DNA of 64,000 nucleotides, taken from positions 1 to 64,000 of the forward strand of contig JAPLTG010000028.1 of NCBI GenBank assembly GCA_026398255.1, given 5' to 3'. Below, one piece after another: positions 1-17,901 of this stretch; positions within the stretch are counted from its first letter, which is position 1, and the number at the start of each line of letters is the position of its first letter. The translations under genes and the position numbers were made by a program. This stretch comes from Verrucomicrobiota bacterium. Its GTDB lineage: Bacteria; Verrucomicrobiota; Verrucomicrobiia; Chthoniobacterales; Terrimicrobiaceae. The notes beneath the pieces are model-generated. The model worked only from the letters and a program-made list of their open reading frames with translations, did not search any database and had not been told where the DNA came from.

Positions 1-3000
1 GTGCCGGTGGTGTCGAGTTTCAGGAGCGAGGTGCCGTTGGTCTGCGTGATCGTGCCAGTGCCGGCAGCGGCGGCGTTGCCGATCACGAGCGTTCCGGTGT
101 TGAGCGTGGTGCCGCCTGAGTAGGTATTGCTGCAGGAGAGGGTGAGTGTGCCAGTGCCGGATTTTGCCAGATTTCCGGAGCCTTGCACGACGCTGGAGAT
201 GGTGGTGTTCGTGGAGGTGTTGGTGGTGAGGGTGAATCCGGTGCCGAGGGAGAGGTTGCCGCCAGTGCCTGCTATGGCACCGATTGTCATGTTATTGCCG
301 ATGGCGAGCGTGCCGGCGTTGATGGTGGTGAGGCCGGTGTAGGTGTTGTTTCCGGAGAGAGTGAGCGTGCTGGTATTGCTCTTAGTGAGGTTACCGGTGC
401 CGGTCATGTTCTGCGAGTTGGTAACGCTGGCAGTGGAGTTCCAAGAGAAAGTGCCGTTGTTAGTAAAGGCAAGTGTGGAGGAGAAGGTCGGAGTGGAAGA
501 CCCGCCAAATTCCAACACACCATTGTTGATGGTGATACCTCTGAGTGTGGGTGATGCAGTGACAAGCACCTTTCCGGTTCCATTTTTTGTGATGGCATAT
601 GACCCAGCGACTGCCGCCATCACCATATCGGCTGTGGAGTTGCTACCGCTGGCTACATTGAAAATCAAGCCGCCATTGGTTCCTTGGTCATTGTAGAAGC
701 CGTTATTTGCAGAGGTGAGTTGGTTTTGGGCACCACCGTTGGTATTGATAGTCATCCAATTGCCACTTTGGATCAGGGCATTGAGGCCGTCATTTACAAT
801 GGTCGCACCACCGGTGCTATCAATATTAATGATCATGCCTTGAAGGGTGGGAATGTTGGCAAAACCTGATTGGAAGCCGAGCTGTAAGGTGGACCCGTTG
901 TTGATATTGATGGTGCTATTAGCGCCATAAATAATAAAATTTCCTTGGGCTTCCAATCGTAAGGTGCCCGCATTCACGGTCTTGGCTCCCGTGAAGGCGG
1001 TGGAGGCATTGAGGATTAAGGTGCCAGAGCCGTTTTTGGTTAATCCGAAGCCGGCCCCGGAGACCACGCCGCGGACGGTCAGGTTCCCGGCATTCACCGT
1101 GATGGTGCGGGAGGAGTTCATGGTGACGGCTCCGGTGCCCAAGTTCAGGTCTTTGGTGCCGGTGAAGGTGAAATTGCCGTTCCAATTCTGCACATTGTTG
1201 GTCGAGAGGGTGATCGCGCTGCCAGTCGTGTTATCAATCGTGCCGCCCGCGATGGTGAGAGTGCCGGTGCCGATGGCCGTGGCGTTGTTGATATTGAGCG
1301 TGCCGGCCCGGAGCGTTGTGGAGCCATTGTAAGTATTCGCCCCGGCGAGGGTGGTGCTGCCGGAACTATTCTGAGTGAGGGAAGCGGTGCCACTGATGAT
1401 GCTGGCCGCGCCTTGCGTGAAAGCGCTGGAACCCGCCGTGGTGATTGCCGTGCCACCCGAGAGGTTGCCCGTTAGGCTGAGCGTGCCGCCATTGATGGCG
1501 GTCGCACCGGTGTAGGTGTTGGCAGCAGAGAGCGTGAGGGTGCTGTTGCCGTTTTTGGTGACGACGCCCGTTCCGGAAATGACGCCACCGATCGTGATAT
1601 TCCCTGCCGCAGTGTCGATGATTCCGCTGGAACTGGCCCCGAGAGCCAAAGCCATGTTGATGGTTTGGGCACTGGCGGAGTTGTTGATGATGTCGCCCTT
1701 CACCGTGAGGGCGGTGCCCCCACTGGCTCCGGCGGAGCCGGCATTGGCGGCGAGCGTGTAGGAACTGGCGGTGGAATTGAAGGTGATAAAATTCAGCGAG
1801 GAAAGCGTGCCGTTGCCGATGTTGTTTGTCGCAGTGCCGCCGGCGCCGGTGAAAACGAGGTTTTTATCCGTGGTGGGGGCCGTCGGGGTGAAGCCAGTGG
1901 ACCAATCTCCGGTGGTGCCGGACCAGATGTAGTCGGGAGTGGCGGCGGCATAGGTGAGCGTGATATTGCCGCCACTGGGGTTGGTGAATGTCCAAGTGCC
2001 TGTGCGGTTGCCCGAGGTGATGCCGAAGTTGGTTAAGTTCACGGCGAAGTTTCCGGAGTTGAATCCGGTCTGGCTGGCGGCACTGATGAGATTCCAGCTG
2101 TAGTTGCCCGTATTGCTCCACCCGGTGGGGGTGCCGTGGAGCGTAATGGTGAAGGGGTTGGCGGCCGTATTGTTGAGCGTGAGAGCCCCGGCGCTGGCGA
2201 GTTGGTCGTAATCCGTGCCGGCCACGGAGGCATTCACATTGCCGATGGTGAAGGCGTAACCGGAGCCGCCTTGGACAGTGATCGAGGCAGCGTTGTATTT
2301 GGCGGAGGCGGTGGTGTTGCCGAGCGAAATGGTGCTGCCAGTTCCCAAGGTGAGTGCGCTGGAGGTGATATTGCTGGAGAGTTGGAGCGTGCCGCCATTC
2401 ACCGTGGTGGCTCCGGTGTAGGTATTGGTGCCGGCGAGGGTGAGTGTGCCGGTGCCGTTTTTGGTGATGGCCAGCGCGGCGGCTCCGCCATTTTGGATGG
2501 TTCCCGAGAAGGTGGTGCTGGAGTTATCAGCTCCCATCGTGAGGGTGGTGGCAGTAGAGGCGTGGCCGTTTTGCACGGTGCCTGCCCCGGCGAGGGAGCC
2601 GATGCCCTGCGAGGTGCCATTCACGGAAAGGACGGCACCGGAGGCCACGGTGTAGGCGGAGTTCGAGGAGAGGGAGGTGCCGTTGCCAGCGAGGATCATC
2701 AGGGTGCCGGCGTTGATGGTGGTGGCACCGGAGTAGGTGGAGTTGATGCCAGACCAGTTTTGAAGCATCAGGGTGCCACTGCCGTTCTTGGTGAGGCTCG
2801 TGGCCGTGACCCCATCGGTGATCCGGCCGCCGTAGGCGTAGGCTTGGGCGGCTGTCTGATTGACGGTCAACACGCCACCGCCCGTGATGCTTATGTTTTG
2901 GGTGTCGTAATTTCCCAAGGCCCCTTCCAGAGAGGCGACTGTTTGGTCGTAACCATTCAGATTCAATGTCGCGGTGCTCTGTCCTGCTGCGGCCCACCCG

Positions 3001-6000
3001 AAGCGAATTTTAGAGGATGAGGCAATAGCGTTAGTTGTTCCCAGCGTGAGATTACCACCGAAATAGAGGATGATATTTCCGAAAGTATTCCCAGAGGAAT
3101 TGATCCTGGTGGTGAGGCCTGATAAATACATGTCTCCAGTGCCGATCGAGATTGTGGAGTTGACAATGGCTTGCCCACCAAAGGCCAAGCCGCTATTGTT
3201 CGCACTGGTAATCCGTCCATTAATCATTAATGTCCCACCACCAGCGTGATGGATCCCACCCGTATAGGTCAGAAGGCCGGTCAGGGTCGTATTTCCGGCA
3301 CCCGTTTCAAGATTTACACTCCCTCCGCCAAAAGACATATTGTTGGCGATAGTCATGTTCCCGCCACCGGGGGCGATTAAGAGCTTGGTATTGAGCGCTG
3401 CCGTCAGGTTACCCGTGCCGAGACCCGCGGCGGAGGTGACTTGGATGGTTCCGGTGGTAAGAGTGGTGCCGCCCGCATAGGTGTTATTTCCAGAGAGAGT
3501 GAGCGTGCCGGCGGCATTTTTCGTGACGGCGCCGGCGCCGGAGATCACGCCCGAGAGGGTTTGGTTATTCGTGCCGCTATGAATCAGAAGGCCGCTGTTG
3601 GAGATATTGCCGGTGTAGTTTCCCCCACCCAAGCTCCCGGCCGCACCGATGAGCAGGGTGCCGGCGTTGATGGTGGTGGCGCCAGTGTAGGTGTTGTTGC
3701 CGGAGAGGGTGAGCGTGCTGGCGGCGTTTTGCGTGAGGGCGCCGGTGCCAGAGATCACGCCGGAGAGGGTTTGGTTTGCAGTGCTGGTGTAGAGAAGGGT
3801 GCCGGAGTTGCTGATCGTGTTTGAGTAATTCCCCCCGCCGAGGAGGCCGGCACCTCCGATCTGCAGCGTGCCAGCGCTGATGGTCGTGCTGCCTGTATAG
3901 GTGTTGTTACCGGAGAGAGTGAGTGTGCTGGAACCGCTTTTCGAAATGCCGCCCGCGCCGGAAATGGCGCCGCCGAGGGTGATGTTGCCGGAGGCGGTAT
4001 TAATGGCGCGGACGCCGTTGAGCGCCAGAGCATTGTTGATGGCCTGGGCATTGGCCGAGTTGTTCACGATGGAGCCGGAAACATTGAGGGTGGAGCCATT
4101 GCCTGCCGAGCCAGAATTCGCGGCCAAAGTGTAGGAACCTGCTGTGGAGTTGAAGGTGATCGTGCCGACAGAGCTGAGGGTGCCGCTGGCGATGTCGTTC
4201 GTGGCCGTGCCGCCTGCTCCGGTGAAGAGCATGTCCAGGTTGTTGGACATGGATGGGGTGAAATTGCCGCTCCAGACTCCCGTGCCGCCCGCCCATGTCG
4301 GCGTGCCTGCAGTGCCGTAGGTGAGGGTCAGGTTTCCGCCAGAGGCTCCAAATGTCCAAGAAGCTCCGGAAGCAAGAGCCCCGCCGAATGACGAGTAATC
4401 CGCGACAAAGTTCCCTGATGAAAATCCACTGAGGCTCGAACCACTCAGGATATTCCAAGTGTAGCTGCCGGAGGAACTCCAGTTCGTTGGGGTGCCATTG
4501 ATGTAAACGGTGAAAGGATTGGCCGCCGTGTTGTTAAATGTAATAGCCCCTGTGGTGGTGATCTGGTCGTAGTCGGTGCCAGCTGTGCCCGCCGTGCCGC
4601 CGGAAATGTTCCCAATCGTGAAGGCGTAGCCGCTGTCACCCGCGACCGTGAGCGAGGCGGCGTTGAATTTGGCAACGGCGGCGGTGGAACCCGCCGAGAC
4701 CACACCTCCGGAGTTGATTGTGAGGGCGCTGGAGGAGATGTTGCCGCTCACGGCGAGCGTGCCGGCGTTGATCGTGGTCGATCCATTGTAGGTATTGGCG
4801 GCGTTGCTGAGGGTGAGCATGCCGGTGCCGTTTTGAGTAATGGCGCCGGTGCCGCTGATCACGCCGGAGAGGGTTTGGGCATTCGTGCCAGAGTAGATGA
4901 AGGCGGCGCTATTGCTGATGGTGCCATTGTAATTTCCGGTCATGAGGCGGCCAGCGGCACCGATTTCCAAGGTGCCGGCACTGATCGTCACATTTGCAGA
5001 ACTGGTGTTGTTGCCAGACAGAATCAGCATGCCAGCACCGCTTTTTTGGAGGCTACCGTTGGTGGGGCCTGCGAGATTGTATGCCAATACAGAGGAGATG
5101 GTAGTGGTGCCACTCGTGACATTGAAATTGCCGGATCCCTGGGTGATGGTCGGACCGGAGATCGTGTTGTTGCCAGAGAGGGTGTAGGAAGCGGCCGCGA
5201 AATCGCCGGGATTACCCGTAATCGTGGAGTCCACCATCGTCAGTGCCCCGTTAAAGCCCCCTAAAAGATAACCAGTCGAAGTGGACGACAAAGTCGACCC
5301 ATTCATTGTGATGGATGTGAGGGCGTTAAAGGCGTTGTGGGCGTTCCCCAAAACAGTTGTTCCGTTATTCATCACCAAAGCTCCCGAAATGCCCGACCCT
5401 ACATTGAGCGATAGCGTCCCCGCATTCACTGTGGTGCCTCCGGAGTAGGCATTTGTTCCAGAGAGCGAGAGCGTGCCATTACCGATCTTAGTGAGGGCCA
5501 GCGTGCCGGCGGTGTTTTTGATCACGCCGGAGAAGGTGCTGGTCGCATTGTTGTCGCCCACGTTCAGGGTCGCGCCGTTGCCATCAATGGTGCCGTTACC
5601 CGAGAGTCCATTGATGGTTTCACTGAAGCCGGCCATGTTGAAAGTGCCAGAATTGATAATGAGGTTGCCTTTGCCAGCGCCATTGGCGATCTGGTTGGCC
5701 GCCCCGAGGGCAAGCGTCGTGTTCGCCGAAATCGTCGTATTTCCTGAATAGTTATTGGTATTGACTAGGCTGTTATTGGTCAGTGTGAGCGTGAAGGCGG
5801 TGCCTTGTGACGGATTCAACAACAACCCGTTCGTGCCGGTGAGTTGACCATAGGCCGTCGCCGAACCCGTGCCGCTACCGTTGGACAAACTGATGTCCGA
5901 GGCTCCGGCAGTGAGTGTGCCATAAAGCTGAATCCCTGAGCCATCAATACGGAATGCAGCTCTACCACCATCAACGTAAGTTGCTCCTGCATTGACGACA

Positions 6001-8873
6001 ATATTATTATAAACCAAGCCTGAATTAAGCATCAATTGAGCCGCGGCCGTGCTGCCATTGGCGCCGATGTAGACGGTGCCTGTTCCTAAATTGCTTTTTG
6101 TTAGGGTCCCATTGACGAGAGTGTTCGTTACGGACCCTTGATAGAGGCGCGCATTACTGCCACCATTGGCAATAGTAAGCCCTCCGGAAAAGGTGTTATT
6201 CGCATTGGAAAGCGCGTTAGCCCCACCGTTATTATAAATGGTCACCGCCGTCTTGGCTGTGGCACCATCCGTAATGAGCGAGGCCAGATTGACATTGTAA
6301 TTCGTGATCGTGAGCGTGTTTGTGCCGGAGCCTGAGGCCGAGTTTGTGATCGTGCCCGCCGCGTTGCCAACTCCCACGGCCGCCACGGTCGCGTTGTAGC
6401 CATTGAGATCAAAAACACCCCCGGTGGCGTTTAGCGTGCTTGCGCTACTTATGCCGGTGGCGCTGCCCGCCTTGAGTGTGCCGGCGCTGATGGTGGTCGC
6501 GCCAGTGTAGGTATTGTTGCCGGAGAGCGTGAGCGTGCCGGTGCCGATCTTGGTCAGGGCGACCGTGCCGGTGACGGTGGCCGGCGAGGAGGATGTGTTG
6601 GATACCGAGATGCCATTGTCCTTGATGGTGCCGCTGAAGTTCGAGGTCGTATTGCCCGAACCCAAGGTGAGCGTCGCGGCGGTGGCGCTACCGTTCTGCA
6701 CCGAGAAGTTGCCGCTGCCGGAAATCGAGGCCAGGGTCTGCGCTTGCCCGTTCAGATAGAGGTCGGCGTAGTTCAGCGTGAGCGCGGTGGTGGTCGGCAG
6801 GGCGTTGGTAGCACCGAGGTAGAGCATGGCCTGCCCGGTGTAACCGAATTGAGCCGTCTCGGATCCGGTGACGGAGGTGGCACCCGCGTAGTCGTTGGTG
6901 GCACCCGTGATCAGGTAGCGACCACCGATACTGCTGGGCTGTAGCACGAAATCCAAGCCGCCGACCCCGGTAATTTTGCCGCTAAGTTGGAGCGTTTTGT
7001 CGTTCCACACATTGGAAACATTGGAAGTGGCATTTAGGGTAATTTGGCCAGTCAGATTGGTTGTGACGCCTGCTCCAGGCTGGTTGCTGAAGATGGCGCC
7101 ATTCGTAGTCGTTCCGTTCAGGGTGATGTTGTTGGCGATGGTCAAATTGTTCGCGCCGACTTCAAGCTTGCCGCCTGCGGCCACCGAGACATTGCCAGAG
7201 CCGAGTGCCGAACTGTTTGTGACGTTGAGGGTGCCGAGACTAATCGTCGTGCCGCCGCTGTAGGTATTGGTGTTTGAGAGCGTGAGTGTGCTTGCGGCGT
7301 TTTGGGTGAGCGCGCCGGTGCCGCTGATCACGCCGGAGAGGGTTTGGGCATTCGTGCCGGAATAGATCAAGGTTCCATTGTTAGAAATACTCCCAGCGTA
7401 GCTTCCGGCTCCAAGCCGACCAGTCGCTCCGATCTCGAGCGTGCCGGCGCTGACCGTGGTTGTGCCAGTGTAGGTGTTGTTGCCGCTGAGCGTGAGTATG
7501 CCTGTGCCATCCTTGGTGAGCGTGCCGGTGCTGGTTGTGATATTTCCGCTGATGATCGTGTTGCTGGCTCCGCCGATCGTCAGGTTTTGTGTGCCGGTGA
7601 TGCCGCCGGAGAGGGTCAGCGTGTTGGCATCGGAGTTAATGCGGGCGGCGCCGCCGAGCGTGATGACCCCCGCATAGGAATTGTTGCCCGAAATATTGCG
7701 CAATCCACCTCCAGAGCTGATGCCGGTGCTGCTCAGCGAGAGGGCTTCGGCTCCCACAGAAATTCCCCCGGTAAGTTCCAAAGCACTTCCACTTGCCACC
7801 GAAGTGCCGTTAGCTGTGGTGCCGAGCGCATTGGCGTGGGCGATGCGGAGAATGCTGGAGCCCGTGATCCACGTGGTTCCAGTGTAGGAATTATTGCCCG
7901 ATAAAATCCAGTAACCGGCCTCGCTTGTCCCTCCATTGGGCGTGATAGCGCCGACTGTTAATGCTGTGATATTGCCGCCGATCACGCCCGAAATTTCATT
8001 GCTCCCCGTGTTCGCAATGCCGGAAAGCGTAAGGCTCGAGGCGTAGGAGGCAGTCCCTGTTACATTTCCCGTGATGACAAGGGCGCCACTTTGGGCAATC
8101 AAGGCATTGTTTCCTCCATCCAATTTAAATGTCCGGTTCGTGGAGGCCGCGGTAGCACCTGTATAATTGAGGTTAGGGCCCTGCCCGCCACCCCATGCCA
8201 AAGTAATCATCGAGCCGGCCCCAAGCGCGCTGCTTTGGCCCGCATTCGCAATGGAATTGAAATCCACCCAACCGCGGCCCAGAGAAAAATTGCCAGTGTA
8301 GGTATTGTTGCCGTTAAAGGTGATGGGGCCATTCGAATTTCCAGAATCCGTAGCGAGGGCGTTCGCGCCGCTGATCACGCCATTGAAGGTCAACTTGCTG
8401 CCACCGCTAAAGGATATGTCGGAAGCTGCACGCGTGATATTGCTGGTGATCGTGTGCGTCTGGGTGGTGTTCGCGCTAGCGATACTACCGGCAAGCGAGA
8501 TGTTGCCGCCCGAGAGGGTGATGTTGCCCGAGGCAGTGCCAAAGGTGATGGCGCCCGAACTGACATTGCCGGAGACGGTGATCGTGCCGGCGGCGAGGCC
8601 ATCTGTTGCGGTGCCGAAATTCAAGGCATCGGCGGTGGTGGTGTTCGTCGTGCCGGACATGACATTGACTCCCGTCGCGGAAGTACTCCAGCCTTGGGTG
8701 GCATCATTCGTGGTCGGCGCGGCCCAAGTGCCGCCCGCCGTGCCGAAGCCAGCGGTGCTGTTGTTCGTGTCCCAATAATAAGTCACCGCGTGAATTTCAG
8801 GAGCTGCCAGCAAAGTCAATGCCAGAGCCGCTGCGCGGGCGGGTGAGAAGTGAAGGAGGCGCGGGGCTTTCAT
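1..8873 (-). CDS. Giant autotransporter-associated beta-strand repeat protein (C-terminus beyond window)
   Basis: A single minus-strand frame is open from an ATG at 8873 to the left edge, at least 2,957 codons; the stop lies outside. It opens with a signal peptide (MKAPRLLHF, then a hydrophobic Ala/Leu stretch ending APEIHA). The mature part is a long series of Gly/Thr/Ser/Asn-rich units such as LTLSGNNTYTGATTISAGTL, the autotransporter-associated beta-strand repeat (PF12951 type) that folds as a right-handed beta-helix. At least fifteen YTG/YSG units are readable, for example near 112, 334, 1511, 2415, 3475, 3693, 3895, 5445, 6505, 7468 and 8296. It is probably a secreted or surface adhesin or structural protein. 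Neither an autotransporter barrel nor a PEP-CTERM anchor is visible; either could lie in the missing C-terminus. No Shine-Dalgarno sequence precedes the start. Confidence 0.9.
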   Translation of the reverse strand, partial: MKAPRLLHFSPARAAALALTLLAAPEIHAVTYYWDTNNSTAGFGTAGGTWAAPTTNDATQGWSTSATGVNVMSGTTNTTTADALNFGTATDGLAAGTITVSGNVSSGAITFGTASGNITLSGGNISLAGSIASANTTQTHTITSNITRAASDISFSGGSKLTFNGVISGANALATDSGNSNGPITFNGNNTYTGNFSLGRGWVDFNSIANAGQSSALGAGSMITLAWGGGQGPNLNYTGATAASTNRTFKLDGGNNALIAQSGALVITGNVTGTASYASSLTLSGIANTGSNEISGVIGGNITALTVGAITPNGGTSEAGYWILSGNNSYTGTTWITGSSILRIAHANALGTTANGTSVASGSALELTGGISVGAEALSLSSTGISSGGGLRNISGNNSYAGVITLGGAARINSDANTLTLSGGITGTQNLTIGGASNTIISGNITTSTGTLTKDGTGILTLSGNNTYTGTTTVSAGTLEIGATGRLGAGSYAGSISNNGTLIYSGTNAQTLSGVISGTGALTQNAASTLTLSNTNTYSGGTTISLGTLNVTNSSALGSGNVSVAAGGKLEVGANNLTIANNITLNGTTTNGAIFSNQPGAGVTTNLTGQITLNATSNVSNVWNDKTLQLSGKITGVGGLDFVLQPSSIGGRYLITGATNDYAGATSVTGSETAQFGYTGQAMLYLGATNALPTTTALTLNYADLYLNGQAQTLASISGSGNFSVQNGSATAATLTLGSGNTTSNFSGTIKDNGISVSNTSSSPATVTGTVALTKIGTGTLTLSGNNTYTGATTISAGTLKAGSATGISSASTLNATGGVFDLNGYNATVAAVGVGNAAGTITNSASGSGTNTLTITNYNVNLASLITDGATAKTAVTIYNNGGANALSNANNTFSGGLTIANGGSNARLYQGSVTNTLVNGTLTKSNLGTGTVYIGANGSTAAAQLMLNSGLVYNNIVVNAGATYVDGGRAAFRIDGSGIQLYGTLTAGASDISLSNGSGTGSATAYGQLTGTNGLLLNPSQGTAFTLTLTNNSLVNTNNYSGNTTISANTTLALGAANQIANGAGKGNLIINSGTFNMAGFSETINGLSGNGTIDGNGATLNVGDNNATSTFSGVIKNTAGTLALTKIGNGTLSLSGTNAYSGGTTVNAGTLSLNVGSGISGALVMNNGTTVLGNAHNAFNALTSITMNGSTLSSTSTGYLLGGFNGALTMVDSTITGNPGDFAAASYTLSGNNTISGPTITQGSGNFNVTSGTTTISSVLAYNLAGPTNGSLQKSGAGMLILSGNNTSSANVTISAGTLEIGAAGRLMTGNYNGTISNSAAFIYSGTNAQTLSGVISGTGAITQNGTGMLTLSNAANTYNGSTTINAGTLAVSGNISSSALTINSGGVVSAGSTAAVAKFNAASLTVAGDSGYAFTIGNISGGTAGTAGTDYDQITTTGAITFNNTAANPFTVYINGTPTNWSSSGSYTWNILSGSSLSGFSSGNFVADYSSFGGALASGASWTFGASGGNLTLTYGTAGTPTWAGGTGVWSGNFTPSMSNNLDMLFTGAGGTATNDIASGTLSSVGTITFNSTAGSYTLAANSGSAGNGSTLNVSGSIVNNSANAQAINNALALNGVRAINTASGNITLGGAISGAGGISKSGSSTLTLSGNNTYTGSTTISAGTLQIGGAGLLGGGNYSNTISNSGTLLYTSTANQTLSGVISGTGALTQNAASTLTLSGNNTYTGATTINAGTLLIGAAGSLGGGNYTGNISNSGLLIHSGTNNQTLSGVISGAGAVTKNAAGTLTLSGNNTYAGGTTLTTGTIQVTSAAGLGTGNLTAALNTKLLIAPGGGNMTIANNMSFGGGSVNLETGAGNTTLTGLLTYTGGIHHAGGGTLMINGRITSANNSGLAFGGQAIVNSTISIGTGDMYLSGLTTRINSSGNTFGNIILYFGGNLTLGTTNAIASSSKIRFGWAAAGQSTATLNLNGYDQTVASLEGALGNYDTQNISITGGGVLTVNQTAAQAYAYGGRITDGVTATSLTKNGSGTLMLQNWSGINSTYSGATTINAGTLMILAGNGTSLSSNSAYTVASGAVLSVNGTSQGIGSLAGAGTVQNGHASTATTLTMGADNSSTTFSGTIQNGGAAALAITKNGTGTLTLAGTNTYTGATTVNGGTLQLSSNITSSALTLGTGSTISLGNTTASAKYNAASITVQGGSGYAFTIGNVNASVAGTDYDQLASAGALTLNNTAANPFTITLHGTPTGWSNTGNYSWNLISAASQTGFNSGNFAVNLTNFGITSGNRTGTWTFTNPSGGNITLTYAAATPDYIWSGTTGDWSTGFTPTAPTTDKNLVFTGAGGTATNNIGNGTLSSLNFITFNSTASSYTLAANAGSAGASGGTALTVKGDIINNSASAQTINMALALGASSSGIIDTAAGNITIGGVISGTGVVTKNGNSTLTLSAANTYTGATAINGGTLSLTGNLSGGTAITTAGSSAFTQGAASIISGTASLTQNSSGSTTLAGANTYNGSTTLRAGTLNINNATAIGTGTLTIAGGTIDNTTGSAITLSTNNVQNWNGNFTFTGTKDLNLGTGAVTMNSSRTITVNAGNLTVRGVVSGAGFGLTKNGSGTLILNASTAFTGAKTVNAGTLRLEAQGNFIIYGANSTININNGSTLQLGFQSGFANIPTLQGMIINIDSTGGATIVNDGLNALIQSGNWMTINTNGGAQNQLTSANNGFYNDQGTNGGLIFNVASGSNSTADMVMAAVAGSYAITKNGTGKVLVTASPTLRGITINNGVLEFGGSSTPTFSSTLAFTNNGTFSWNSTASVTNSQNMTGTGNLTKSNTSTLTLSGNNTYTGLTTINAGTLAIGNNMTIGAIAGTGGNLSLGTGFTLTTNTSTNTTISSVVQGSGNLAKSGTGTLTLSCSNTYSGGTTLNTGTLVIGNAAAAGTGTITQTNGTSLLKLDTTG
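1750..2330 (-). repeat. Internal module end/start, copy 2 of a ~791-residue tandem duplication
   Basis: Inside the giant repeat gene, this stretch encodes a non-repeat segment (TDYDQLASAGALTLNN, then NPFTITLHGTPTGW, then a Trp-rich link, then LVFTGAGGTATNNIGNGTLS). The same order and wording recurs at about 4123-4700. The shared codons for VYRTLAAN-like text (plus-strand gtgtaggaac) begin at 1756 and 4129, an offset of 2,373 bp or exactly 791 codons. Protein similarity is clear, while DNA has diverged, so the duplication is old. Confidence 0.65.
4123..4700 (-). repeat. Internal module end/start, copy 1 of a ~791-residue tandem duplication
   Basis: Partner of the segment at 1750-2330. Read on the minus strand it gives TDYDQITTTGAITFNN, NPFTVYINGTPTNW, a Ser-rich link with Trp, then LFTGAGGTATNDIASGTLSS. 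Text of this kind usually closes the passenger of a single secreted beta-strand protein, before its anchor. Finding it twice inside one chain suggests that complete passenger cassettes were joined end to end. Confidence 0.65.
4843..4889 (-). repeat. 47-bp exact repeat within the beta-strand gene, copy A
   Basis: These 47 bases are identical to 7312-7358 and lie in the same reading frame (offset 2,469 bp, 823 codons). They encode the TNAQTLSGVISGTGA part of a repeat unit. Related but diverged versions occur near 3531-3580 and 3748-3795. Confidence 0.8.
7312..7358 (-). repeat. 47-bp exact repeat within the beta-strand gene, copy B
   Basis: Identical over 47 bases to 4843-4889, in frame, encoding TNAQTLSGVISGTGA. 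Exact identity over this length inside an otherwise diverged repeat field suggests recent gene conversion or recombination between units. Confidence 0.8.
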
Positions 8874-11586: not shown

Positions 11587-12774
11587 TCAATGTCCGGCGC
11601 CGGGAGCGCCCTTCAGGTAGGTGCCGTAGCCGATCACAATGGTGGAGAGAATGAGCGTGAGGATTCCCGCGACGATCAGCGTGTAGGTTTTCTTCGAGGA
11701 GCCTTTCCACTCATGGAAAATCCAGCCCCATACCGTTGAGAAAACAATGATCGAGGCCATGTGGAGGGTCCACGACGAAAAGCCGAAGCCGTCGGGATCC
11801 GATCCGCCCATGCGAATGTGGCCCATGGAGTAAAAGAAAAACTGGAAATACCAGATACTGCCGGCGAGGGCGCAGAAGAAATAATTCCCGAGCATCGGAA
11901 TGCGGAGGTCATTTTTGTCAATTTTCGGAGCTACACCGCCGCCGCCGTGGTCGCCGCCGGTGACCGCCAAGCCAGCGTGCTCAGGGCGCGCCTGAGTGGA
12001 GAGATACTGATAGCCGGTTTTGTTTTTGAGGTTGAGCATCACGCACCAGATAAAATTTGTGGTGAACCCGCCCAGCATCACGACGATGAGGCTTGGGATG
12101 CCGGACCAGAGTTCGTCAGTGCCCAGCGCCACGGAGGCTTTGCCGATCGGCTCGCCAGCGGTGAGGCCGAAGCTGAAGCACGCGCTCATCACGCCTGAGA
12201 AGGTCGCGACGAGAATACCCTTCTTGAAGTCGAACTCCTTCACCGTTTTCAACTTCTCTTCGGCAGGCATCTCCTTTTCCTTGTTCGCACCCGCGAGCGC
12301 GGCCACCCAGATCCCGAGCAAACAGATCCCGACGCCCAGCAGCGTGATTTTTCCCGGAAAAGTCGAGGCGATCTGGCCAATGGTTTCGCCCACCGGAATG
12401 TCGGGCAGGAAGGTCTTGAGAATCGGCGGCAGCAGCGTGCCAAAGGCGGCGCAATATCCGAGCGCCACGCCCATGCCCAGCGACATGCCGAGGTAGCGCA
12501 TCGCGAGGCCGAAGGTCAGCCCGCCGAAGCCCCAGAGCACACCGAAAAAATAAGTCCAAGCCAAGGTGGAGAACGGCTGGGAAGAGAGGACGCCGGTGAC
12601 ATCCTTCGTCAAAATCGAGGCCAAAAGCCAGGGGCAGATGAGCCAGGAAAACACCCCGCCGACGAGCCAATAGGTCTCCCAGGACCATTTTTTGACCGCG
12701 CGGTAGGGAACATAGAACGAGCCGGAGGCGAGGCCGCCGAGCCAGTGGAACAGGACGCCGAGGATGGGATTCAT
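11587..12774 (-). CDS. rhaT: L-rhamnose/H+ symporter RhaT
   Basis: A 395-residue integral membrane protein with about ten hydrophobic segments, opening MNPILGVLFHWLGGLASGSF, a good match to RhaT. Other family text includes YFFGVLWGFGGLTFGLAMRY, followed by a long Gly/Leu-rich helix. A charged cytoplasmic loop (KEKEMPAEEKLKTVKEFDFKK) lies mid-protein. It imports L-rhamnose with a proton across the inner membrane. It follows rhaA by 16 bp on the same strand, so the two form an operon supplying and isomerising rhamnose. No Shine-Dalgarno sequence precedes the ATG. Confidence 0.93.
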   Translation of the reverse strand: MNPILGVLFHWLGGLASGSFYVPYRAVKKWSWETYWLVGGVFSWLICPWLLASILTKDVTGVLSSQPFSTLAWTYFFGVLWGFGGLTFGLAMRYLGMSLGMGVALGYCAAFGTLLPPILKTFLPDIPVGETIGQIASTFPGKITLLGVGICLLGIWVAALAGANKEKEMPAEEKLKTVKEFDFKKGILVATFSGVMSACFSFGLTAGEPIGKASVALGTDELWSGIPSLIVVMLGGFTTNFIWCVMLNLKNKTGYQYLSTQARPEHAGLAVTGGDHGGGGVAPKIDKNDLRIPMLGNYFFCALAGSIWYFQFFFYSMGHIRMGGSDPDGFGFSSWTLHMASIIVFSTVWGWIFHEWKGSSKKTYTLIVAGILTLILSTIVIGYGTYLKGAPGAGH

Positions 12775-12790
12775 GGTGGTGGGGTTGGGA

Positions 12791-14041
12791 TTAGTTGCGG
12801 GAAGCGAGCACGGAGCGCTCGTAATTTTTCACCTCGGCGAGCCAGGAATGGTCAGCGGGGACATTTTGGCGGCGGCAGTGCTCCTGCCAGACCGCTCCGA
12901 GCGGAAGAGTCTTCGCCTCCTCCATGAGAGCGAGGCGCGAGGTGTGGTCGCCGTCTTTCTCGGCTTGGCGCAGAAGGGCGGCGGGCTCGAGGAGCGCGGC
13001 GAGGAGGCACTTGATGGTCGAGCGGGTGCCGATGACCCAAGCGGCAATGCGGTTGATGCTGGCATCGAAGAAATCCAAGCCGATGTGCGTGCGGCCGAGG
13101 AATCCGCCGCGAACGAGTTCTTCCATGATCGCGCGGGTCGGGTCGTCCATGAGAACGACATGGTCGCTGTCCCAGCGCACGCCACGGCTGACATGGAGTA
13201 GGATTTCGGGAACGAATTGGAGGACGGACGAGATTTTGTCCGAGAGGTTTTCCGTGGGATGGAAATGGCCGGCGTCGAGGCAGTAGAGGAGTTGGTTTTT
13301 GACGGCGTAGGCGAGGTAGAATTCATGCGAGCCGACGACATAGCTCTCCGAGCCGATGCCGAAGAGTTTGCTCTCCACGGCGTCGAGGTTGAGCGTGCGG
13401 TCCACAGGCGCGGCAAGAATCTCGTCGAGCGAGGCGGCGAGCCGCTCGCGGGGCGACTTGCGGTCGTGGGGCATGTCCTTCGAGCCATCGGGAATCCAGA
13501 CATTCGTGACCACCGGCGAGCCGAGTTGCATGGCGATCTCGGCGCCGATCTTACGACAGGCGATGCCGTGGTTGATCCAGAACTCGCGGATTTTTTTGTC
13601 CGGATGGCTGAGCGTGAGGCCATCGGCCGCGAGGGGGTGCGAGAAATAGCTTGGGTTGAAATCCATCCCAAGTCCCTTCGATTTGCACCAATCCACCCAG
13701 CTCTGGAATTGCGCGATCGTGTAGGCGTCGCGGTCCACACGGCCGCCGGAGAGGTCGGCGTAGCAGGCGTGGACATTCAAGCGGTGCTTGCCAGGAATGA
13801 GCGAGAGCGCCTTGTCGAGGTCGGCGCGGAGTTCCTCAATCGTGCGCGCCTTGCCGGGGTAGTTGCCGGTGGCTTGGATGCCGCCGCCTTCGAGTTTCGA
13901 GCCGGCTTTTTCAAACCCGCCGACATCATCGCCCTGCCAGCAATGGAGGGAGATCGGCGTCTTGGCGAGGGTCTCGAGGGCGGCTTCGGTGTCCACGCCG
14001 AGGGCGGCGTATTGTTCGCGGGCAGAGGGGTAGTTGCTCAT
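12791..14041 (-). CDS. rhaA: L-rhamnose isomerase RhaA
   Basis: 416 residues, the normal length for RhaA (419 in E. coli). The protein converts L-rhamnose to L-rhamnulose in the cytoplasm. The metal-binding residues known from the E. coli enzyme (E234, D267, H294, D302, D304) all appear with a constant offset of eleven: E223, D256 in [11 protein letters not shown]283 in LLHVSRG, and D291/D293 in WDSDHV. It is the first gene of a rhaA-rhaT operon read divergently from an AraC-family gene. The downstream steps, rhamnulose kinase and aldolase, are not in this window. Confidence 0.95.
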
Positions 14042-14101
14042 AAGAATAGTGGAAGGAGTTCCATTTCTTAGCTCTTGGGAGGGGCATTATGGAATGCAAA
14101 T

Positions 14102-14128
14102 AATGACCTAAATTATCATCAAAATGAC
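14102..14128. promoter_or_regulatory. Candidate AraC-type operator between rhaA and the AraC gene
   Basis: AATGAC occurs at 14102-14107 and again at 14123-14128, 21 bp apart, which is two helical turns and the usual spacing of tandem half-sites for AraC-family regulators. Both copies are preceded by an A-rich stretch. They sit about 60-85 bp upstream of the rhaA start and about 165-190 bp upstream of the AraC start. The arrangement fits activation of rhaA-rhaT by the divergent regulator, but only the sequence pattern supports it. Confidence 0.4.
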
Positions 14129-14290
14129 ACCAGTGAGTTTTCCTCCCATTCGCCGCCGAGGGAGTGAAATGAAGCGAGTCAGCGAGCCTTGAGATGAGCA
14201 AAAAGTCCAGCAGGGGAATTGATAAAAAGAGGTTGCCGGTTGATTCATGCAGGGCAACCTTCGCAGCTCCGTTGCATTCCTTTTTTTAAA

Positions 14291-15193
14291 ATGCCACATA
14301 AACAGAAGGACTATTTTCTCTACCTGCCGAGGACGCCCGAGCGGGAGCGCTGGGGGGTGGAGGTCTTGGGAGGCGGATTTGCCAGGATCCCTGCCAAGAT
14401 TTACTACCCTCCCATCGGCCATCCCACGGATCACTCGTTCAACTACGAAAAGGGACGCGTGCTCCAATCCCTGCAAATCCTCTGCGTCACCGAGGGCAAG
14501 GGTCTGCTGAAAACCGCCTCCAACTCGACGCAGAGAATCACCGCCGGGAGCGTCTTTGTTTTGATCCCTGGGGAGTGGCACACCTATCGTCCCGACCCGA
14601 AGACCGGCTGGGCTGAGCACTGGATCGAACTCGATGGCATCGTGCCGCGCCGACTTCTCGCCGACGGGATTTTTTCAGCGACCAAGTGTGTTTTTACTGA
14701 GGGCGCTGGGGTCGGGGCGGCATTCATGAAAATCCACCCGTTGCTGGATGGTCGCCGCCATGCGTCCGCCTCCGAGTTGGCGGTGGCCGCCATGGAATTG
14801 CTTTCCGCCTGCGCGATGCTCTCTGGCGGCGGAACGAATCGTGCGAAACATTTGGAAAAAATCGCCATCGCCGAGCGACGCCTCTCGAGCCCGATCGATG
14901 GCCCACCCGACCTCAAAGCCCTCGCCAAGGAATTGAGCTGGGGATATTCGTATTTTCGTCGGGAATTTAAAAAACAGACCGGCTTGTCTCCTTGGCAATA
15001 TCACCTGCAGGCTCGGTTTTCCCTGGCGCAACGGTCTTTGATGACGACGAGTGACACGCTCGAGGAGATCGCACAATCCACGGGCTTCGGCTCGGCTTTT
15101 CATCTCTCCAATGCCTTCAAGAAAGCCTTTGGGAAATCTCCAGGGCATTGGCGCGAACACCACCCTCCGGACGAGCCGCTCAGCGGAAGGTGA
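14291..15193 (+). CDS. AraC-family transcriptional regulator, probable rhamnose regulator
   Basis: From the ATG at 14291 the protein has 300 residues; a TTG at 14219 would add 24. An N-terminal cupin-type sensing region (TAGSVFVLIPGEWHTYRPDP) precedes a C-terminal pair of helix-turn-helix motifs (DLKALAKELSWGYSYFRREF, and DTLEEIAQSTGFGSAFHLSN), ending in the AraC signature FKKAFGKSPGHWR. It is divergent from rhaA-rhaT and very likely controls that operon in response to rhamnose. Its last four codons and stop (LSGR) lie in a 56-bp sequence repeated 899 bp downstream, where they also end a toxin gene. Confidence 0.9.
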   Translation: MPHKQKDYFLYLPRTPERERWGVEVLGGGFARIPAKIYYPPIGHPTDHSFNYEKGRVLQSLQILCVTEGKGLLKTASNSTQRITAGSVFVLIPGEWHTYRPDPKTGWAEHWIELDGIVPRRLLADGIFSATKCVFTEGAGVGAAFMKIHPLLDGRRHASASELAVAAMELLSACAMLSGGGTNRAKHLEKIAIAERRLSSPIDGPPDLKALAKELSWGYSYFRREFKKQTGLSPWQYHLQARFSLAQRSLMTTSDTLEEIAQSTGFGSAFHLSNAFKKAFGKSPGHWREHHPPDEPLSGR

Positions 15194-17145: not shown

Positions 17146-17901
17146 ATGAAATTGATTTCCTGGAATGTGAATGGCATCCGCTCGATCATCGGCAAGGGCC
17201 TCATGGACTACCTCGAGCGCGAGAAACCTGATGTCCTCTGCCTCCAGGAAATCAAAGCCCGACCCGAGCAGGTCCCTCAGAAATTCGACGGCTACGAGGT
17301 TTATTGGAACTCCGCCGTCCGCCCAGGCTACTCCGGCACGGCAATCCTCACCCGCAAAACCCCGGCCGGAGTTACCAACGGCATCGGCCACCCCGAGCAC
17401 GACCAGGAGGGACGCGTGATCACGGCGGACTTCGGCGATTTTTATCTCGTGAATGTCTACACGCCGAATTCCCAGCGCGAGCTGACGCGGCTCGACTACC
17501 GCACGCACGAGTGGACGCCGGCGTTCATCGGCTACTTGCGGGATCTTCAAAAAACGAAGCCGGTCGTATTTTGTGGCGATATGAATGTGGCGCACCGGGA
17601 AATCGACCTCGCCCGACCGCGTGAGAACACCCGCAACGCCGGCTTCACCATCGAGGAGCGAACCTCCTTCGACCAAATCCTCGCCGCAGGATTCATCGAT
17701 ACCTTTCGCCACTTCGAACCCGCTGGGGGTCACTACACCTGGTGGAGCTACCAGAATGGCGCCCGCGAGCGGAATATCGGGTGGCGCATCGACTATTTTT
17801 GCGCCTCGGAGGCACTCGAGGAAAATCTACAATCCTCTTTTATCCAAATGAATGTCATGGGCAGCGACCACTGCCCGACAGGCCTCGTTCTCACAGACTG
17901 A
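17146..17901 (+). CDS. xth: Exodeoxyribonuclease III
   Basis: 251 residues with the full exonuclease III/AP endonuclease pattern: MKLISWNVNGIRS at the start, DVLCLQEIKARPEQVP with the metal-binding Glu, VFCGDMNVAHREIDLARP with the catalytic Asp/Asn pair, RTSFDQILAAGFIDTFRHF, and WRIDYFCAS with SDHCPTGLVL at the end carrying the Asp-His pair. It acts in base-excision repair by cutting at abasic sites and as a 3'-5' exonuclease. It is divergent from the rhodanese-like gene and is followed by a strong hairpin at 17972-18025. Confidence 0.94.
   Translation: MKLISWNVNGIRSIIGKGLMDYLEREKPDVLCLQEIKARPEQVPQKFDGYEVYWNSAVRPGYSGTAILTRKTPAGVTNGIGHPEHDQEGRVITADFGDFYLVNVYTPNSQRELTRLDYRTHEWTPAFIGYLRDLQKTKPVVFCGDMNVAHREIDLARPRENTRNAGFTIEERTSFDQILAAGFIDTFRHFEPAGGHYTWWSYQNGARERNIGWRIDYFCASEALEENLQSSFIQMNVMGSDHCPTGLVLTD

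Follow-up and report, generated by a model that had tools for sequence, protein, structure and literature searches.

The passenger of a classical autotransporter is translocated with the C-terminus leading, and the rungs at that end are a stable core that seeds folding (PMC5895577, PMC5767081; here and below, statements on cited papers refer to the passages of them that were consulted). Autotransporter models assume one C-terminal folding seed. Here we describe a giant gene for a PATR-repeat surface protein in which, judged by its sequence, passengers are joined end to start, with the anchor and the signal peptide gone at each joint. The gene lies within 64 kb at the start of contig C22 (JAPLTG010000028.1) in the 2.6-Mb draft genome of a Verrucomicrobiota bacterium (GCA_026398255.1). 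This stretch of 64,000 nt is called the window below. Encoded on the minus strand, the gene has an ATG at 8873 and a frame of 2,957 codons that stays open to base 3. Because the window starts at base 1 of the contig, which the end of the frame reaches, the 3′ end of the gene was lost at an assembly break.

In a Pfam scan, PF12951 (PATR) alone matched the giant protein (16 stretches, 311.8 bits, cut-off 27), and TIGR02601 scored 282.5 bits. The PATR stretches and a predicted beta-helix are shared with PATR/TIGR02601 passengers of the ShdA, IcsA and Ssp type. Unlike them, the giant protein repeats whole passengers with closing and opening caps, and it most probably lacks a barrel. Its closing domain, named TAIL here, superposes in models on the autochaperone AC-1 of type Va systems (Rojas-Lopez et al. 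2018, PMC5767081), and it is likewise predicted at the C-terminal side of its own beta-helix. It differs from AC-1 in being internal and repeated, in lacking a sequence match and in occurring also before PEP-CTERM anchors. Autochaperones far from the translocator are noted as unresolved in PMC5767081, and no description of tandem AC-ended units was found in its consulted passages. The relation to PEP-CTERM/exosortase proteins (Haft et al. 2006, PMC1569441) is that paralogues and relatives end in PEP-CTERM and that the genome has an exosortase gene; unlike those proteins, the giant gene is missing its end and its membership is putative. In Periscope proteins, rods of variable repeat number with PATR among the examples (PMC9704523), length is also set by the number of modules, but the module here is a complete capped passenger and not one repeat domain. 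We found no description of tandem autochaperone-ended passengers or of such a unit structure in our searches, which covered open-licence PubMed Central papers only.

Two homologous joints in one frame

According to the preliminary description, the same text occurs twice in this frame, exactly 791 codons (2,373 bp) apart. The coordinates confirmed this for FTGAGGTATN, at residues 1550 and 2341; TDYDQ is found at residues 1433 and 2220, with a spacing of 787. The self dot-plot proposed there had ungapped 60-residue diagonals at offsets 787, 790, 791 and 795, with 34–38 identities in 60 residues. The two joints (residues 1376–1647 and 2166–2442) are about 270 residues each and 787–791 residues apart. 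They aligned over their whole length with few gaps and 61% amino acid identity (dN 0.33, dS 1.19). Their local BLOSUM62 score was 790. Joint 1 scored no higher than 166 against shuffled versions of joint 2 (n = 1,000) and reached at most 172 against 64 further segments of equal length from the giant protein. Chance similarity through low-complexity composition was ruled out by these shuffles and segments. Values of dN were well below dS, both between the joints and between the third unit and a paralogous gene, C4a.

Could the assembler have stitched together repeats of several paralogues? The contig does break inside the giant gene, the 3′ end of C4a is frame-shifted, and similar orphan ends are present on contigs C9 and C39. 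However, the joints differ at 35% of their nucleotides (dS 1.2), so their confusion by an assembler is implausible, and the same joint was present in other genomes, with up to three in one 5,390-codon frame. An artefact of this kind seems very improbable.

Tails close passengers and heads open them

The repeated text consists of TAIL (TDYDQ...NPF...GTPT.W), a gap of 5–6 residues and HEAD (W.GG.G.W...FTGAGGTATN). Along the giant protein, TAIL and HEAD are separated by five residues at the first joint and by six at the second. We built TAIL and HEAD profiles from 14 joints (alignment A2) and scanned the frames of the fetched loci. All 13 tails from the family's other genera were terminal, with a stop 26–38 residues downstream, and stood before PEP-CTERM text. 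For most of them, this text (VPEP or IPEP) began within 0–2 residues, and for L112 and L113 within about four. HEAD directly followed a signal-like N-terminus in all seven head-only genes of the family; three multi-head proteins (L099, L102 and L104) had nine more heads, which were internal.

A wider sample came from the phylum search: the 12 tail-only and eight head-only frames that ranked highest among those below 2,000 codons. Ten of the 12 tails were terminal, nine of these with PEP-CTERM text. The protein of L140 ends 14 residues after its tail, without such text. HEAD was right behind the N-terminus in nine of nine head-only frames (the eight chosen and one neighbour in L147). A weaker internal head was also seen in the tail frames L136 and L140, and one further edge-cut frame in each of these two loci was left uncounted. 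In single-unit relatives, HEAD comes after the signal peptide and TAIL stands before the PEP-CTERM anchor; the order in the giant protein therefore means that passengers are joined end to start. We regard the architecture, the homology and the precision of the boundaries as established.

It could be supposed that TAIL and HEAD are one inserted spacer domain, which punctuates a single long passenger and never formed separate protein ends. The pair is indeed contiguous and co-inherited in the genus, and the 14 joints fall into a few clades. However, TAIL without HEAD and HEAD without TAIL are normal in single-unit relatives, at opposite protein ends, and in the predicted fold each half resembles a different kind of passenger region. 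A spacer is thus a rather improbable explanation, and we prefer the joining of passengers.

These results changed the preliminary description in part. The whole text had been taken to close a secreted protein; TDYDQ...GTPT.W does so, but W...FTGAGGTATN opens the next unit. Two complete cassettes in tandem had also been proposed. Whole units do stand in tandem, but only the middle one (HEAD 2 to TAIL 2) has both family end domains; the first opens with another domain, H1, and the end of the third lies off the contig. The limits given for them (1750–4700) cover the middle unit and nearly all of TAIL 1, but only part of HEAD 3.

At another locus, L124 (genome G149, contig C104), two adjacent giant frames have tails about every 900 residues. 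TAIL may not necessarily be tied to PATR, because the PATR profile was silent on these frames. A PEP-CTERM paralogue on contig C42 (L032:3477-8225) has, by eye, an apparent tail-head joint of another type, ...ATSDRLTF... and then YYWKGANGSTWGTANNW; the TAIL and HEAD profiles did not match this paralogue.

Occurrence in the genome, genus and phylum

The genome has six joints in four genes: two in the giant gene, one each in C4a and C4b, which are tandem neighbours on contig C4, and two in C20. The end of C20 is a PF03797 barrel (189 bits), and that of C4b is PEP-CTERM text. The closest named joint belongs to Verrucomicrobia bacterium UWPOB_VERRUCO3 (50% identity). Full-length joints were present in five of 16 genomes of the genus (G000, G002, G004, G005 and G012), and G004 has three within one barrel-ended frame of 5,390 codons. 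Synteny was too thin to call C20 and this relative orthologues.

Among 288 genomes of the phylum, including this one, at least 51 matched TAIL and/or HEAD at E ≤ 1e-10. Outside the family, joints spanning both were read from the listing for at least seven genomes (G037, G110, G149, G187, G202, G258 and G289). Up to nine candidates were scored per genome, and the counts are lower bounds. The largest of the frames listed, 12,857 codons with repeated tails, is in G289 (L116, contig C14); its 6,666-codon piece matched by the profiles holds four tails. In G187, tails and heads alternate within one frame. Giant genes are also known from related phyla (PMC12057145).

Predicted fold

An AlphaFold model of the first joint and its flanks (residues 1290–1780, 14 sequences) had a mean pLDDT of 84.2 and a pTM of 0.59. 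We compared it with 86 PDB chains in VIA-align 2. Residues 1–234 of the model aligned to C-terminal parts of autotransporter passengers: Ssp 398–641 (Z 18.9, 200 residues, 3.1 Å), IcsA 505–740 (Z 15.6), SepA 766–1006 (Z 14.8), Hap 747–976 (Z 13.7) and pertactin 336–571 (Z 12.3). The published autochaperone limits of IcsA (606–720), pertactin (444–556) and Hap (830–964; PMC5767081) all fall inside these ranges. The last rungs of Ssp are autochaperone-like, with a boundary helix and a hairpin cap (PMC9977779), and a short helix was called within TAIL of the model. Alignments that start at about residue 235 were to beta-helices, among them the HxuA, HMW1 and EtpA secretion domains; the model supports HEAD as the beginning of a new beta-helix.

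The middle unit was also modelled alone (26 rows, pLDDT 72.1, pTM 0.48), with confident ends and a weak middle. Alignments A4 and A6 (whole unit plus fragments) were noisy, and A6 gave the weaker second model. The structure prediction proposed in the preliminary description did yield a beta-helix plus cap, and both tails superposed on the IcsA autochaperone 3ml3 (TAIL 1: Z 9.6, 136 residues; TAIL 2: Z 9.2, 132 residues, 2.9 Å). The models support an autochaperone-like fold of TAIL at the C-terminal end of a right-handed beta-helix. The sequence profile of the tails matched no PDB chains beyond a lectin, an antibody and a piece of a pilin (3.8e-5, over two stretches of 35 residues).

Origin of the joined protein

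In a sliding comparison, much of residues 1–560 and of residues 2481–2957 was closest to C4a, with up to 75 of 80 residues identical near the end, and residues 760–1160 were mostly closest to C4b. The last 216 codons had 91.7% amino acid identity to C4a (dN 0.047, dS 0.28). In the joint tree, joint 2 paired with the C4b joint (83/89) and not with joint 1; its identity was 68% to the former and 61% to the latter. Because of this pairing and the mosaic of C4a-like and C4b-like stretches, exchange among paralogues is favoured over internal duplication. Units were probably added or swapped via recombination among tandem paralogues.

A rival account of both joints is plain tandem duplication of one unit within the gene, without such exchange. 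Forcing them together was 6.5 log-likelihood units worse, which is not rejected at 5% (approximately unbiased (AU) test, P = 0.066), but the pairing with C4b, the higher identity to it and the mosaic all speak against duplication, and we think it less likely. A single clade of all internal tails had P = 0.062, and the tail tree required a minimum of three switches between end and internal position. The earlier idea of growth by fusing whole cassettes thus agrees with the architecture and with the mosaic similarity to two neighbouring paralogues, but the tree leaves room for internal duplication. It was also proposed that growth was not only by adding repeat units. Whole units are joined, and the addition of smaller repeat units occurs too, as a local duplication of about 70 residues near residue 1649 in the dot-plot.

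The 3′ end of C4a (L031:4349-9268) is out of frame, and PEP-CTERM-like text in another frame matches the sequence at the edge of C39; either decay or misassembly might be the reason. A signal-peptide/opener fragment is present in a second copy (L031 about 17169–17441, C4:43168-43440) some 2 kb upstream of C4b, and stops lie between them. It looks as if C4b's own start was replaced.

Anchoring and the missing C-terminus

The genome encodes an exosortase (PF09721, 136.2 bits, cut-off 25.7). A barrel on the giant protein is unlikely, because the single PF03797 match in the genome belongs to C20 and the closest 3′ paralogues carry PEP-CTERM text. The giant product is probably PEP-CTERM-anchored. 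Orphan PEP-CTERM ends were found at the edges of contigs C39 (L035:9388-9831) and C9 (L030:1-1785). The PEP-CTERM score of C39, a candidate 3′ continuation, was 20.4 bits, just under the cut-off of 20.7; C9 scored 13.5. C39 seems likelier than C9 to be the 3′ end of the giant gene, because it starts inside the terminal cap; by homology, about 160 residues would be missing between the open frame and C39. C9 was rejected as a direct continuation because it contains a terminal PATR block itself. No 5′ part of C9 was visible in the assembly. Neither C9 nor C39 shares an exact end overlap with the window. Since the same joint type sits before barrel ends (PF03797, 189 and 193 bits) and before PEP-CTERM ends, the passenger unit is independent of the anchor type.

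Proposed working of the protein

We consider it likely that the giant protein is a modular, Sec-exported and probably PEP-CTERM-anchored surface rod in which the beta-helices are separate and every one has an autochaperone-like cap. No fewer than three passenger units follow one another in it, the end of one joined to the start of the next, and each is predicted to be a right-handed beta-helix with rungs of the PATR type. A TAIL cap ends two of the visible units, and a HEAD cap opens two; at each joint, the upstream anchor and the downstream signal peptide are missing and 5–6 residues are left. TAIL probably caps its own helix at the C-terminal end, shields it and blocks run-on into the next. 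It would also seed the folding of the preceding rungs, so that a passenger of about 3,000 residues would fold in segments. In C20-like barrel proteins, segmental folding would match the known transport direction, and the product of the giant gene would likely be exosortase-processed. We infer the segmental folding, the anchoring of the giant product and the recombination route from the comparisons above.

Several observations weigh against this reading. TAIL is not always last: two of the 12 phylum tails (L131 and L132) are internal, with other domains after them. The opener of the first unit is no recognisable HEAD, as the expected-length domain of H1 scored −1.6 bits, and the giant gene's own C-terminus is absent from the contig. 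Foldseek found nothing in PDB at E ≤ 0.001 (best 0.031), and its statistics were not significant by themselves; the autochaperone link rests on the second look with VIA-align and on the matched ranges. TAIL 1 matched no Pfam family even at E ≤ 1, and 19 tails had unrelated weak Pfam matches and none to an autochaperone family. The missing sequence match does not exclude the fold, because the published definition of AC is structural. Finally, pTM was 0.59 and 0.48, so the models do not give the relative placement of the units, and the unit model is ill-defined in its middle part.

More tentatively, folding might proceed as a relay. Internal caps would divide giant passengers, each unit would start its own folding on emerging, length would grow by self-folding units, and the autotransporter and exosortase routes would share the unit. 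A function of the rod in adhesion or matrix is a guess based on its class of protein. The locus bears on the open question of how bacterial surface proteins of 3,000 to 12,000 residues fold. Passengers that naturally carry two or three seed-like caps at intervals, in barrel-anchored and in PEP-CTERM proteins, permit testing of once-seeded versus unit-by-unit folding, and our results suggest unit-by-unit making and folding of very long surface fibres. The opener-helix-cap grammar also helps to annotate proteins now labelled merely as repeats.

Features of the window

Table 1. Parts of the giant gene, in window coordinates.
Feature	Position	Strand	Basis
Giant PATR-repeat surface protein, 3′ end cut at contig edge	3..8873	−	Frame and PF12951
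Probable signal peptide, residues 1–29	8787..8873	−	By eye; N-terminus common to C4a, 64/80 identical
N-terminal opener H1, residues about 30–170	8364..8786	−	Not recognised by HEAD profile
Block closest to paralogue C4b, residues 760–1160	5394..6596	−	Sliding comparison
TAIL 1, residues 1381–1519, autochaperone-like closing cap (TDYDQ...)	4317..4733	−	Profile, 147 bits; AlphaFold, VIA-align
Linker TAIL 1/HEAD 2, 5 residues, without anchor or signal peptide	4302..4316	−	Profile limits
HEAD 2, residues 1525–1647, opening cap (W.GG.G.W...FTGAGGTATN)	3933..4301	−	Profile, 143 bits
Complete middle unit, HEAD 2 - PATR beta-helix - TAIL 2, residues 1525–2309	1947..4301	−	Profiles and model
TAIL 2, residues 2170–2309	1947..2366	−	Profile, 155 bits; predicted fold
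Linker TAIL 2/HEAD 3, 6 residues	1929..1946	−	Profile limits
HEAD 3, residues 2316–2442	1548..1928	−	Profile, 148 bits
Third unit past HEAD 3, residues 2481–2957, closest to C4a	3..1433	−	Sliding comparison; codon comparison

Elsewhere in the window, L-rhamnose genes are found at 11590–15190, namely a RhaT transporter, a RhaA isomerase and an AraC-type regulator.

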